Part shown: in pieces, positions 35 to 48,666 of the stretch
Layout of the letters: each line of letters opens with the position of its first letter
Numbering within the stretch: the first letter of the stretch is position 1
Assembly: GCA_013298125.1 (NCBI GenBank)
Contig: JAAFJP010000014.1
Span: 62,001-126,000 of the forward strand
Length of the DNA: 64,000 nucleotides
Source: Cytophagales bacterium
GTDB taxonomy: Bacteria > Bacteroidota > Bacteroidia > Cytophagales > Spirosomataceae
Direction: 5' to 3'
Made by a program: the position numbers and the translations under genes
The notes under the pieces: generated by a model
Seen by the model: the letters and a program-made list of their open reading frames with translations, nothing else
Told to the model about the DNA's origin: nothing
Databases searched by the model: none

Positions 35-57
35 CCCCTTCTGGGGGCTGGGGGGCT
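35..57 (+). repeat. G-rich palindromic repeat, copy 1
   Basis: A C-run/CTGGGGG/G-run element of the same kind as the two copies near 2968 and 3036. The reading frame of the RraA gene is open through it to the window edge, so it may sit inside that gene's N-terminus or just upstream of its start. Confidence 0.6.
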
Positions 58-721: not shown

Positions 722-930
722 GCCTGATAAAGGCAACATTTTGGTAGAGAACACGAAAAAAACAAAGCCAACAAGCCCCATCGGGGTGACATTTTGGTAG
801 AAAAATTTGAAAGTATATCCGTCTTCAAAGCCCCATTGGGGCAACATTCTGGACTGCCGCCCCGATGGGGCTTTTATATATACTTGTTCTATCACAATTG
901 CTACCAAATTTCCGCCCCGATGGGGCTAAT
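722..930. repeat. Array of GCCCC-ATC-GGGGC palindromes, array 1
   Basis: Five short units of a hairpin (GCCCCATCGGGGC or variants), the better ones followed by gACATTTTGGTAGA. Units near 722, 775 and 830 point right; those near 855 and 911 are inverted. The array fills the gap between the RraA stop and the heparinase start, and the early ATG codons of the longer heparinase reading frame fall inside it. A second array of the same family lies at 3444-3590. Confidence 0.85.
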
Positions 931-942
931 TCAAATGAATTC

Positions 943-3024
943 ATGCCCATATTTTTAAACGATACAGAAAAAAGAACCATTTTAACCGAAATCAAAAACG
1001 AAAATTCATTGGTTTCGATATTTTTTCATGCCCTCCAAAAAAGAGTTTATGAACGAGTTTCTTGGGGAAATCTATTAGGACCAAATGCCACGACGATTTG
1101 GTGGCATTCAACCGCTGAATATTTGTCGGATGCTGCCATGAGTTATGCCCTCAAACCAACGCCTGAATTGGCGGATTGGCTCAAAAGAGAAACGCTCGAA
1201 ATTGTCAGAAAATCAACCTACGATTGGGTAGGTCCAGCATTCAGAGACCATTCAGAGCCTTTCACTGGACATCTCGAAACAGCCTATCTTTGTTGGGGTG
1301 TTTCGGCGGTGTATGATTTGGCAAAAGGAGCATTTTCTGAAAATGAACAACAAGAAATCAAGACCGCTTTACACGAAAAAGGTATTATCCTTTGCAGAAG
1401 ATGGTTGGACAAAAACGTCCATTTAGCCAATTGGAGAAGCATTTTGTTTAGTGGAGCAATGGTTTCGGCGGTTGTTTTGGAAGATGAGAAAACGGTAAAT
1501 GAATTGTTGCCAGAGTTTGAATTATGTCAAAATGCCCTACAATATGATGGTTCTTACGGGGAATCTTTACAATATGGAAATTATCTTCTTTTGGCAATCA
1601 CATTTGCGAATGAAGCTATCAAAGGAGGTTTTCTAAACATCGAACAACAAACATCGAACATCGGAAATTCAATCAACTGGTTCGCTACCTCCATGTTCTA
1701 CGCCAAACCCTTAAACGGTTGGGGTGATGAACCACGAGCCAGAGCAGCCAATTTCAACGACAGTGCTTCTATTTTCAGACCATCGGGAGACATATTATTA
1801 CACGTTGCCGCAAGAAGTGAAAACGAAACAGAAAGAGGTTTAGCCAAATGGTTATTTGAAAAATATTATGCTACTGTTCCCAATCAAGAACCTCACGATT
1901 TGGCAACCTTGGGCATGAGAAATGATTGGGGATTTTTGACGCTTCCATTATTGACCTACGAGTCAAAAAGTATGTCGCCCGAAGAAGCCAATTTGCCTCT
2001 GACGACCATTTTTTCAAACGGAAATGGCTTCATACGTGATGCCTGGGAAGGAAAAACCATCATTGCCACCAATGGAGGAAGTGAGCCGCTGAACGGTTTA
2101 GGGCATTTACACGGAGATTTGAACAGCTTTATTTTGGTTCATAACAACGAAAGACTCTTGACAGACGCTGGGCATAGCTGTTATAGAAATTTGATTCATG
2201 GCTTAGAAAGTAGCTCGCAAACGCATAATACTTGCACATTTTTGATTGAAAAAGAGTCATTAGGTTTGCAAGAAGACTTAGCAAAAGCATCCTTATTGGA
2301 ACAAAAAAGCGTTTTCCCACGAAGATTAATCGTGAAGGGAAAAGGTGGGGGTACGTCCTTACGGGAGAAGATTGACCGAGGCGACCAATTATTGATTTGT
2401 GAAAAAGAAGATGTTATTTCTGTAATTGGTTCAGAAGTGGGCAAGGCTTATGGACAACCTATTCAAAATTTTTCAAGATTTTGGATTTTGGCAGGAAGCA
2501 ATGTTTTATTCATAATTGACCAAATATCAGCGGATTATCCAGTAACTACTTTGTGGAATTGGGTAGTCAATAATCGTGATGGAAAAACGGTTTGGCAAAA
2601 AGATAAGAACTGTTTGACCGTTCAAAAAAACAATGCTGGTATGAAACTATTTCATGGAGGCAATGGCTCATTTTCATTTCCAGTTCATGGTTTTCTGCAC
2701 GATGCCTATCACCCAGAACCCAATCAATTAGGCGAAGGACGTTCGGGCGATAGTTATGTGTTTCGTTTTACTGAAAAAGAAAAATTAGCAAATCGTACCA
2801 TCGTTCATGCTATTGCTTTGGACGAACCTAACTTATTGATTAACTGGAACTTAGCAATAAAAGATAATCAATATACCTTGAAAAGTGATACCAAAAACTG
2901 GACTCTGAAAATCAATGCGGATGATTCTTTTTCAATGATTTCAGGGCATAAACGTACTTGGGATATAAGCCCCTTAACCCCCAGAGGGGGAACAAAAAAA
3001 TATAGATTATCAAAAAATGAATAA
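943..3024 (+). CDS. Heparinase II/III-type polysaccharide lyase
   Basis: About 693 residues. The N-terminal part (about 1-340) is helical and matches an alpha/alpha toroid; the C-terminal part carries the heparinase II/III-like beta domain with GHLHGDLNSF, a DAGHSCYRN segment and SSQTHNT, the His/Tyr-rich stretch that forms the active site of these lyases. No signal peptide is visible, so it probably acts on oligosaccharides in the cytoplasm. The start at 943 is chosen because the upstream ATG (865) lies within a palindromic repeat. The last residues (SPLTPRGGT) are encoded by another palindromic element. The stop overlaps the next gene's start by 8 nt. With kduD downstream this fits uronic-acid polymer breakdown; the polymer itself is not determinable. 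Confidence 0.82.
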   Translation: MPIFLNDTEKRTILTEIKNENSLVSIFFHALQKRVYERVSWGNLLGPNATTIWWHSTAEYLSDAAMSYALKPTPELADWLKRETLEIVRKSTYDWVGPAFRDHSEPFTGHLETAYLCWGVSAVYDLAKGAFSENEQQEIKTALHEKGIILCRRWLDKNVHLANWRSILFSGAMVSAVVLEDEKTVNELLPEFELCQNALQYDGSYGESLQYGNYLLLAITFANEAIKGGFLNIEQQTSNIGNSINWFATSMFYAKPLNGWGDEPRARAANFNDSASIFRPSGDILLHVAARSENETERGLAKWLFEKYYATVPNQEPHDLATLGMRNDWGFLTLPLLTYESKSMSPEEANLPLTTIFSNGNGFIRDAWEGKTIIATNGGSEPLNGLGHLHGDLNSFILVHNNERLLTDAGHSCYRNLIHGLESSSQTHNTCTFLIEKESLGLQEDLAKASLLEQKSVFPRRLIVKGKGGGTSLREKIDRGDQLLICEKEDVISVIGSEVGKAYGQPIQNFSRFWILAGSNVLFIIDQISADYPVTTLWNWVVNNRDGKTVWQKDKNCLTVQKNNAGMKLFHGGNGSFSFPVHGFLHDAYHPEPNQLGEGRSGDSYVFRFTEKEKLANRTIVHAIALDEPNLLINWNLAIKDNQYTLKSDTKNWTLKINADDSFSMISGHKRTWDISPLTPRGGTKKYRLSKNE

Positions 3025-3060
3025 CGATATAAAAATTCCCCCTCTGGGGGTTAGGGGGCT
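2968..3060. repeat. Inverted pair of G-rich palindromic elements spanning a gene junction
   Basis: Two arms of about 25 nt, 2968-2992 and 3036-3060, are reverse complements with one mismatch. The left arm is coding for the heparinase C-terminus and the right arm for the N-terminus of the VOC protein; the stop/start overlap lies in the loop. The right arm is the same element as copy 1 at 35-57. Confidence 0.9.
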
Positions 3061-3430
3061 ATTTTTAGGAATAGACCACCCAGCCGTAGCCGCCGATGAT
3101 GTAGAAAAATTGGCGGATTGGTACTGCGATGTTTTGGGTTATGAAAAATGGTTCAGGCATGACAAGCCAGTTTGGATGCTTAAAGCCCCTGACGGAACAT
3201 TGCTCGAAATAATGCCCAAAGATGATACATTAAGACAAAGCCGAACTACATGGACACCAGGTTGGTCACATTTGGCTTTGAGAGTTGAGAATATAGAAGA
3301 AGCGATTGCTTATTTAGATACAACAAATATAGTTTGGGGTGGCGAAGTAATTAACGCCATTGGTGGCGGAAAAGTCCGCAATGCCTTTGATGGGGAAGGA
3401 AATATGATTCAGATTTTAGAAAGAAAATAA
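3017..3430 (+). CDS. VOC-superfamily (glyoxalase/dioxygenase-like) protein, copy 1
   Basis: A 137-residue single-chain VOC protein with the beta-alpha-beta-beta-beta pattern: GIDHPAVAADDVEKLADWY at the first metal-ligand His, a central GWSHLAL, and GNMIQILE at the C-terminal Glu. It is a paralogue of the VOC gene at 3623. Compared with that copy it carries about ten extra residues (IPPLGVRGLF) just before GIDHPAV, encoded by a palindromic element. The ATG at 3017 overlaps the heparinase stop, so the two are probably translationally coupled. VOC enzymes are metal-dependent isomerases, epimerases or ring-cleavage enzymes; its place beside a lyase and dehydrogenases suggests a sugar-acid isomerisation step, which is inference. 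Confidence 0.82.
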   Translation: MNNDIKIPPLGVRGLFLGIDHPAVAADDVEKLADWYCDVLGYEKWFRHDKPVWMLKAPDGTLLEIMPKDDTLRQSRTTWTPGWSHLALRVENIEEAIAYLDTTNIVWGGEVINAIGGGKVRNAFDGEGNMIQILERK

Positions 3431-3443
3431 TTTCAATAAATAA

Positions 3444-3590
3444 GCCCTGTAAGGGCGATAGTTTGGTAGAAATTAAAGACGATAACTCGAATCAAGCCCC
3501 ATCGGGGCGACAGTTACTGGATAGAAATGTCACCCCGATGGGGCTTGTTGTATTTCTATTATTACCAAAATAACAGCCGCATCGGCGATC
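3444..3590. repeat. Array of GCCCC-ATC-GGGGC palindromes, array 2
   Basis: Four units of the same family as 722-930: near 3444 and 3496 in one orientation with the TTTGGTAGA-type tail, then near 3531 and 3562 inverted. It separates the two tandem VOC genes. Together with array 1 it brackets the heparinase-VOC1 segment. Confidence 0.85.
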
Positions 3591-3622
3591 CGACCTATGG
3601 GCTTAAAAATAAACAATAATTT

Positions 3623-4015
3623 ATGTCAAATTTTAAAATAAAAGGCGTGGACCACCCAGCCGTGGCTGCTGAAAATGTAGATACACTTGCCGATTGGTAT
3701 TGTGAGGCTTTGGGCTTTGAAAAACTTTTCAGAGATGACCGCCCAATATGGCTACTCAAAGCACCCGATGGCGTGATTTTGGAAATATTACCCATTGATG
3801 CCAATCCACGTCCTGTACGCACAAATTTAACCCCAGGTTGGTCGCACGTAGCATTTGGGGTAGATGATATTGAAATAGGAATTGCTCATTTAGACACCTA
3901 TAATGTGGTTTGGACAAGCCCGCTTTCACCTGCAACAGGTGGTGGACAAGTGAGAACTTTCAAAGACCCAGAGGGCAATGTTTTGCAATTAATTGAACGA
4001 CCAAAAGAAAATTAA
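3623..4015 (+). CDS. VOC-superfamily protein, copy 2
   Basis: A 130-residue VOC protein and close paralogue of the 3017 gene (shared DHPAVAA, LADWYC, LLKAPDG, GWSH and GGGQVR/GGGKVR segments). The putative ligands are the His of GVDHPAV, the His of GWSHVAF and the Glu of NVLQLIE. It starts MSNFKIKGVDHPAV with no insertion, so it serves as the undisturbed reference for copy 1. The stop is 1 nt before the alcohol dehydrogenase start, so the two are co-transcribed. The reaction is unknown beyond the VOC family; a tandem duplication followed by divergence is likely. Confidence 0.85.
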   Translation: MSNFKIKGVDHPAVAAENVDTLADWYCEALGFEKLFRDDRPIWLLKAPDGVILEILPIDANPRPVRTNLTPGWSHVAFGVDDIEIGIAHLDTYNVVWTSPLSPATGGGQVRTFKDPEGNVLQLIERPKEN

Positions 4016-40907: not shown

Positions 40908-40994
40908 ACTCACCCCACCCAACCCTCCCCTCGAAGGGAGGGCTTGTTGAGCTTAAAAGCCCTCCCTTCGAGGGGAGGGTTGGGTGGGGTGAGT
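40908..40994. repeat. Perfect 37-bp inverted repeat
   Basis: Arms 40908-40944 and 40958-40994 are perfect reverse complements around a 13-nt loop. Each arm contains a smaller palindrome, CCCTCCCCTCGAAGGGAGGG. The sequence is homologous to the 38-bp repeat at 48577-48666. It lies between convergent genes. Confidence 0.97.
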
Positions 40995-48576: not shown

Positions 48577-48666
48577 TCACCCCATCCCAACCCTTCCCCT
48601 CAAAGGGAAGGGCTAAAATTTGTGTGAAAGCCCTTCCCTTTGAGGGGAAGGGTTGGGATGGGGTGA
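48577..48666. repeat. Perfect 38-bp inverted repeat
   Basis: Arms 48577-48614 and 48629-48666 are perfect reverse complements around a 14-nt loop, homologous to the repeat at 40908-40994 (TCACCCCA.CCCAACCCT core). Confidence 0.97.

Follow-up and report, generated by a model that had tools for sequence, protein, structure and literature searches.

The window analysed here is a 64,000-nucleotide (nt) stretch from a Cytophagales bacterium (GenBank assembly GCA_013298125.1, contig JAAFJP010000014.1, positions 62,001 to 126,000 of the forward strand). At the junction of a heparinase II/III-like gene and a VOC (glyoxalase-like) gene, it carries a copy of a dispersed repeat, hereafter referred to as family A. 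We propose, with a probability of about 0.78, that family A is a non-autonomous inverted-pair repeat that has multiplied in the window's genome (hereafter G000) and to a lesser extent in one sister genome, and that it comes to lie in frame in protein loops and termini by replacing target DNA. Judged from the nucleotide sequence, its arms appear to be translated as extra protein loops or tails.

The repeat at the heparinase/VOC junction

A preliminary description of the window had reported a G-rich palindrome within the VOC open reading frame (ORF; 3017–3430, plus strand; Pfam PF00903 from residue 18). We found the ORF, the extra peptide that it encodes (MNNDIKIPPLGVRGLFLGIDHPAV) and the palindrome (TTCCCCCTCTGGGGGTTAGGGGGCT, located at 3036–3060) as described. 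The palindrome, taken at that time for a single coding element, is indeed in frame in the VOC gene, but it proved to be the right half of an inverted pair that spans the gene junction. The sequences at 2968–2992 (minus strand) and 3036–3060 (plus strand) are inverted partners of 25 nt with 96% complementarity, and an AT-rich spacer of 43 nt (2993–3035) lies between them. The left arm is situated near the C-terminus of the heparinase II/III-like ORF (865–3024, plus strand; Pfam PF07940), in the frame reading SPLTPRGG, and the right arm is situated in the VOC N-terminus, in the frame reading IPPLGVRGL. The spacer carries both the stop codon of the heparinase-like gene (TAA, 3022–3024) and the start codon of the VOC gene (ATG, 3017–3019).

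The closest orthologous loci, L040 and L041, are found in metagenome-assembled genomes labelled Cytophagaceae and Emticicia, with VOC identities of 90% and 85%, respectively. Both arms are absent from them: the heparinase-like protein ends with YKLKRTK*, the VOC protein starts with MKFLGIDHPAV, and the two genes overlap by ATGA. Compared with these orthologues, the VOC protein of the window has 13 additional residues, not about ten as first estimated, and they form an N-terminal extension that includes the right arm, not an internal insertion. The preliminary description had also named the presence of the same residues in distant orthologues as evidence to the contrary; outside G000, PPLGVRGL was present in the N-terminus of no orthologue that we compared. 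The paralogous VOC gene (3623–4015, plus strand), which had been offered as a built-in control, has no element and lacks the residues, but such a sister gene also stands beside the VOC gene in L040 and L041 and is not a matched control; the orthologues are better suited to this purpose. Elsewhere in the genus, no heparinase orthologue was found at E 1e-15, the sole match being that of G000, and the G007 contig stops within the VOC gene.

The focal doublet of ~93 nt occupies the place of ~43 nt in L040 and L041 (flanks aligned by eye), and thus the focal event was no simple addition. Downstream of 3017, the next in-frame ATG, GTG or TTG is the TTG at 3110, beyond the conserved GIDHPAV, so that the right arm would be translated, barring a rarer start such as CTG at 3044. 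Because the first strand in the AlphaFold model of the VOC protein and the alignment with PDB 2p25 both begin at residue 16, the extension looks like a tail added to an intact fold; in the model, residues 1–8 have a predicted local distance difference test score (pLDDT) below 50.

Copy number, reading frames and apparently replaced loops

We searched for arms by matching a 22-nt core, allowing 3 mismatches at most, and used the reversed core as a control. The window contained 3 matches, as compared with 0 in 100 dinucleotide shuffles, and G000, a draft genome in 72 contigs, contained 75 arms (39 forward and 36 reverse), as compared with 0 for the reversed control. These controls rule out chance or low complexity as the source of the palindrome. 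Among the seven other genomes of the genus (G001–G007; eight in all), G005 had 33 arms and the remaining six had 1–2 each. In a draw of 194 genomes from the order that did not include G005, only G000 and one further genome, with a single copy, contained the exact core.

The consensus arm of family A is AGCCCCYTAACCCCCAGAGGGGG, and its layout is A-GCCCCYTAACCCCCAGAGGGGG-spacer-CCCCCTCTGGGGGTTAGGGGGC-T, with variants. Flank analysis of all arms but one (74 of 75) yielded 51 clusters. Both orientations were present in 46 of them (scan with up to 6 mismatches), in one identical arrangement in all 46 cases; at least two of the five single-arm clusters have a degraded partner by eye. A typical doublet encodes 20–31 residues, a single arm 8, and doublets with long spacers up to 58. 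The sharing of 6- to 8-mers among spacers was within the shuffle range, and we rejected on this ground the idea of a conserved spacer as part of the mobile unit. No target-site duplication was found in 43 doublets, the best z of 2.6 over 128 settings being within the expectation for multiple testing.

A genome-wide search for the element within coding sequences, as suggested in the preliminary description, placed 34 of the 51 G000 clusters in frame within ORFs of at least 150 amino acids, with at least 25 amino acids on both sides. These 34 clusters fall in 33 distinct ORFs, 30 of which (all but three from contig C45) were searched for NCBIfam families. The curated cut-off was passed by leuS, valS, pheT, uvrA, murD, argC, lnt, pbpC, nirB and rhaD, whose products are the leucyl-, valyl- and phenylalanyl-tRNA synthetases, UvrA, MurD, ArgC, Lnt, PBP1C, NirB and RhaD. 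UvrA passed for TIGR00630 and not for NF001503, and the remaining scanned ORFs were below the cut-off or without a match. The other 17 clusters, according to ORF lists read by eye, are at gene edges: intergenic, upstream of a start, in N-terminal extensions or at C-termini. N-terminal extensions with the start codon in the spacer were found in the window VOC gene and at C1:61845, C23:42897 and C72:76712. The gene at the last of these presumably is an argB, which it resembles. No gene-breaking copy was seen among the G000 clusters in the same lists. By the ORF limits used for G000, 10 of the 24 G005 clusters lie within ORFs, one of which (L276) is probably located upstream of the true start. 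In alignments of ArgC and MurD with PDB structures, the inserts coincided with gaps or with poorly aligned segments, and nothing firm on surface position followed.

Two further loci of G000 concern the ends and joints of genes. At C4:48963 (L027), a family A doublet links two glycosyltransferase domains in one ORF, and these domains are encoded by separate ORFs in G001 and G007. At C8:92206 (L030), two convergent ORFs end at the arms (...VIAP and ...PIAP), and thus both of their stop codons are apparently supplied by the arms.

One of the three frames of an arm contains TAA or TAG. Both ends are defined at 29 sites, where the arm stop was retained in 0 of 16 left arms and 0 of 12 right arms when the stop frame was in use, and in 9 of 13 left arms and 5 of 17 right arms when another frame was in use (Fisher p 7e-5 for the left, 0.06 for the right and 1.8e-5 pooled). 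Arms outside this internal set retained the stop in 20 of 28 cases. The arms that lie in the stop frame are substituted copies. A hydrophobic reading, FPLWxLGG, is used at two places of membrane context, namely in Lnt (C71) and at C2:52833; the latter stretch, MNFKKIMLSILLPLWGLGGLSC, is by its pattern an apparent lipoprotein signal peptide.

We then compared the genic sites with those of relatives; for 28 of the 34, the two flanks were joined and used as a query against G001, G002, G005 and G007. A homologue was present in at least one fetched relative of the genus for 29 of the 34 sites, leaving 5 without. At 26 of these 29, no examined relative had a family A arm, and a shorter variable loop was found instead; the arms of relatives were limited to G005 and to three sites (pbpC, nirB and an RNA-ligase-like gene). 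Native loop residues were fewer in G000 than in relatives in all 25 comparable rows (G-E vs N), where rhaD was omitted, two rows represent the two leuS copies at one site, and two medians include arm-bearing G005 rows. ArgC provides the clearest case: four relatives have S/T-D/E-D-L-H/Y-T-N/D-I/V-D-V, as compared with SPLTPRGGTLADEYLEELSPSGGQGA in G000. Regression did not discriminate a net gain of two arms only from that of the whole doublet (S vs N, p 0.31; S vs D, p 0.18).

The leuS gene is present twice in G000, at C2:90749–93770 and C3:130788–133809, with a DNA identity of 88% between the copies. They have one doublet in common, and each has one further doublet of its own. The two genes could represent a real duplication or two strains in one bin.

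Proposed mechanism and competing explanations

Our proposal is that the arrival of a new copy removes some tens of target bases without duplicating the target, and that selection would retain only those copies that keep the frame open within a loop able to tolerate them or at a terminus, or that fall between genes. The focal copy would thus have replaced the heparinase/VOC junction, its spacer providing the heparinase-like gene with its stop and the VOC gene with its start. Given the fixed pair arrangement, the absence of duplication and the loss of target bases, the route might pass through a single-stranded hairpin, or the repeat might serve as filler in a repair process.

Several points weigh against this proposal. 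In rhaD, the arms stand on either side of ~40 clearly host-like codons, which does not fit the insertion of one unit. The statement that no copy breaks a gene depends on reading the ORF lists by eye, and the stop-frame test is partly circular because the sites were selected as open frames. The apparent replacement could also be an old insertion followed by trimming of the loop, or an insertion into loops previously filled by other repeats. Finally, G000 is a draft of 72 contigs.

Several features of family A recall the repetitive extragenic palindromic (REP) sequences and their doublets (REPINs), and it is conceivable, if unlikely, that family A is a REPIN moved in trans by a host REP-associated tyrosine transposase (RAYT; a Y1 transposase), its in-frame copies being the survivors of selection. 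The palindromes of family A are short and GC-rich and form inverted doublets, always arranged alike and present in many copies. Matches to PF01797 number five in G000 and are present in 8 of the 8 genus genomes, and a degraded arm-like match (up to 6 mismatches) lies ~2 kb from a RAYT of the same genome (L142). However, 31 of the 47 PF01797 loci of the genus, scanned with up to 6 mismatches, had no good arm and only two weak look-alikes (L035 and L142). None of the five loci in G000 has a good adjoining arm, the two weak matches apart, although a RAYT could be missing from the draft genome. G001–G004, G006 and G007 carry PF01797 genes and yet have only 1–2 arms. The GTAG/CGTC tag forms part of the REP definition in PMC3733652, which also mentions intragenic copies in several species; both GTAG and CGTC are absent from the consensus arm of family A, and no clearly flanked RAYT was found. 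Family A also differs from REPs in not being mainly extragenic, with only 17 of 51 clusters outside genes or at their edges, and its target is replaced, not simply interrupted. The Bacteroidetes subclass 2.6 is reported to have 'atypical' structures at its flanks (PMC6006769), so that a distant tie of family A is conceivable.

The rhaD case raises another explanation, namely that two arms were inserted separately, in opposite orientations, about host DNA that now forms the spacer. Besides the ~40 host-like codons of rhaD, spacers matched their own native loops better than swapped loops when rhaD was included (permutation p 0.02), and the YRLSKNE* encoded by the focal spacer resembles the native YKLKRTK*, with the stop and start positions preserved. 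Without rhaD, however, the mean for own loops is ~10.3 (our own arithmetic) against 10.5 for swapped loops, so that the spacer as a retained host loop is unsupported among the other loops. The similarity of the focal spacer to the native junction was at the shuffle level (p 0.59 for L040 and 0.20 for L041; 0.81 and 0.40 with dinucleotide shuffles); part of this spacer may yet be of host origin. The single arrangement in 46 of 46 pairs also argues against separate arrivals. We consider this explanation decidedly unlikely.

It is still less probable that the hairpin is a translation-control element of the heparinase/VOC junction with only incidental coding. The predicted RNA hairpin is strong (-55.4 kcal/mol, z -7.85) and has the VOC start codon in its loop, but any long inverted repeat would fold in this manner whatever its role, the junctions of L040 and L041 lack this element, and 34 of the 51 clusters are inside ORFs. 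As for a VOC start farther downstream with an untranslated arm, or an assembly artefact behind the whole pattern, G000 is fragmented and many repeats at predicted 5′ ends of genes may be extragenic according to the survey PMC3733652, but the position of TTG 3110, the frame kept in 34 internal clusters and the same pattern in the separate assembly of G005 make both scarcely credible.

In its small size, apparently non-autonomous nature and terminal inverted repeats, family A is similar to miniature inverted-repeat transposable elements, from which it differs in that none of the 43 doublets showed a target-site duplication. No parent insertion sequence was found in a search confined to PF01797.

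The closest parallel, as the preliminary description had proposed, is provided by the palindromic elements of Rickettsia (RPE), to which we liken family A by descriptions, not by sequence. The likeness holds: the element is dispersed, most of the analysed copies are in frame, and orthologues exist without the element or its residues. RPE and the corresponding Wolbachia elements (WPE) are palindromic repeats of ~100–150 bp that occur in frame in unrelated, often conserved genes, and activity was kept in one tested protein (PMC2229807, PMC3767692, PMC10969869). Wolbachia and Rickettsia elements can share the same region of one gene (PMC3767692). Family A differs from them in belonging to another phylum, in consisting of an inverted pair of ~24-nt arms with a variable spacer, in standing in for native loop residues, and in being one of several families that alternate in one loop across the genus.

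Our literature search, which did not reach most subscription papers, yielded no account of palindromic repeats lying in frame in Bacteroidota genes. The host genus is probably free-living. In-frame palindromic repeats are best known from Rickettsia and Wolbachia (PMC3767692, PMC10969869), both of which are intracellular. A Bacteroidota genus with dozens of in-frame inserts in usually essential enzymes, with sister genomes having empty sites and with two leuS genes differing by an insert, makes the movement of the element and the tolerable addition to proteins directly testable. It also presents repeat DNA as a source of protein segments, of a likely signal-peptide stretch and of one apparent gene fusion, and cautions that a repeat can be the origin of start sites and loops in genomes of this kind.

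Other repeats in the same loops and in the window

Some loops contain different repeats in different genomes. The pbpC loop has family A in G000 and G005, a heptamer repeat in G001, a doublet of another family (family D) in G007, and no recognised repeat in G002. The G001 repeat is of the AACTCACAATTC type, with an exact copy at C2:180308 and 37 matches genome-wide, and the family D doublet of G007 reads LTPSPSPLERG...SPLQRRGAGGEV. At leuS site 3, a family D arm is present in G001 and in one G000 copy, family A in the other G000 copy, and a short plain loop in G002 and G007. In valS, G005 has a AACAGTTAGCAGT repeat (24 matches, with an exact copy at C383:1699) at the place of the family A copy of G000. 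The heptamer patterns are simple (reversed controls, 5 vs 68 and 1 vs 106), and many of the matches are overlapping registers of one array. Since these loops were selected for their repetitive look, they show occurrence and not frequency. We tentatively entertain, as somewhat less than an even chance, the idea that certain loops of housekeeping enzymes in this genus are exchangeable cassettes, in which the repeat active in a lineage takes the place of the loop DNA and is not merely added to it, so that sister species hold unrelated families in frame at one position.

Family D consists of GAGAGGGGCTGGGGGTGAGG doublets that can encode LTPSPSPxERG/SPLxRRGAGGEV, for example at C1:11511 of G000. 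With up to 2 mismatches, its arms number 181 in G000, where they are more numerous than those of family A, and 32 in G001. Like family A, it forms inverted doublets, some of which are in frame within ORFs. This was the case for 6 of the 20 G000 clusters sampled, one of them (L302) being doubtful, and for the copy in G007 pbpC. Its sequence is different, however, its arms are mostly 61–68 nt apart, and its genic share in the sample is lower than that of family A (6/20 vs 34/51, Fisher p 0.008), with the family D sample being the first-listed matches and not random. A further family, B (CCCTTCGAGGGGAGGG, 9 arms), served as a control for coding location: none of five loci was within a long ORF, although a short stop-free frame ran across the repeat at four of the five. 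In the window itself, CCCTTCGAGGGGAGGG-like repeats form two inverted pairs (40908–40994 and 48577–48666) that match perfectly over 38 nt and are both outside long ORFs.

The one family A arm outside the 51 clusters, which we read separately, is the third arm of the window (35–56, plus strand, 3 mismatches). An RraA-like ORF (MNNNGRHTSNGTVATAPLLGAGGLSPF...; L146) probably has an N-terminal extension that contains this arm in frame. The extension would begin just upstream of the window, and the start listed for the ORF, at 86, may be placed too far downstream. A different palindromic repeat, of the AAGCCCCATCGGGGCGACA type, is present downstream of the RraA-like gene (720–930), and another of this type (3442–3600) fills the space separating the VOC genes; in L040, these two genes overlap by ATGA.

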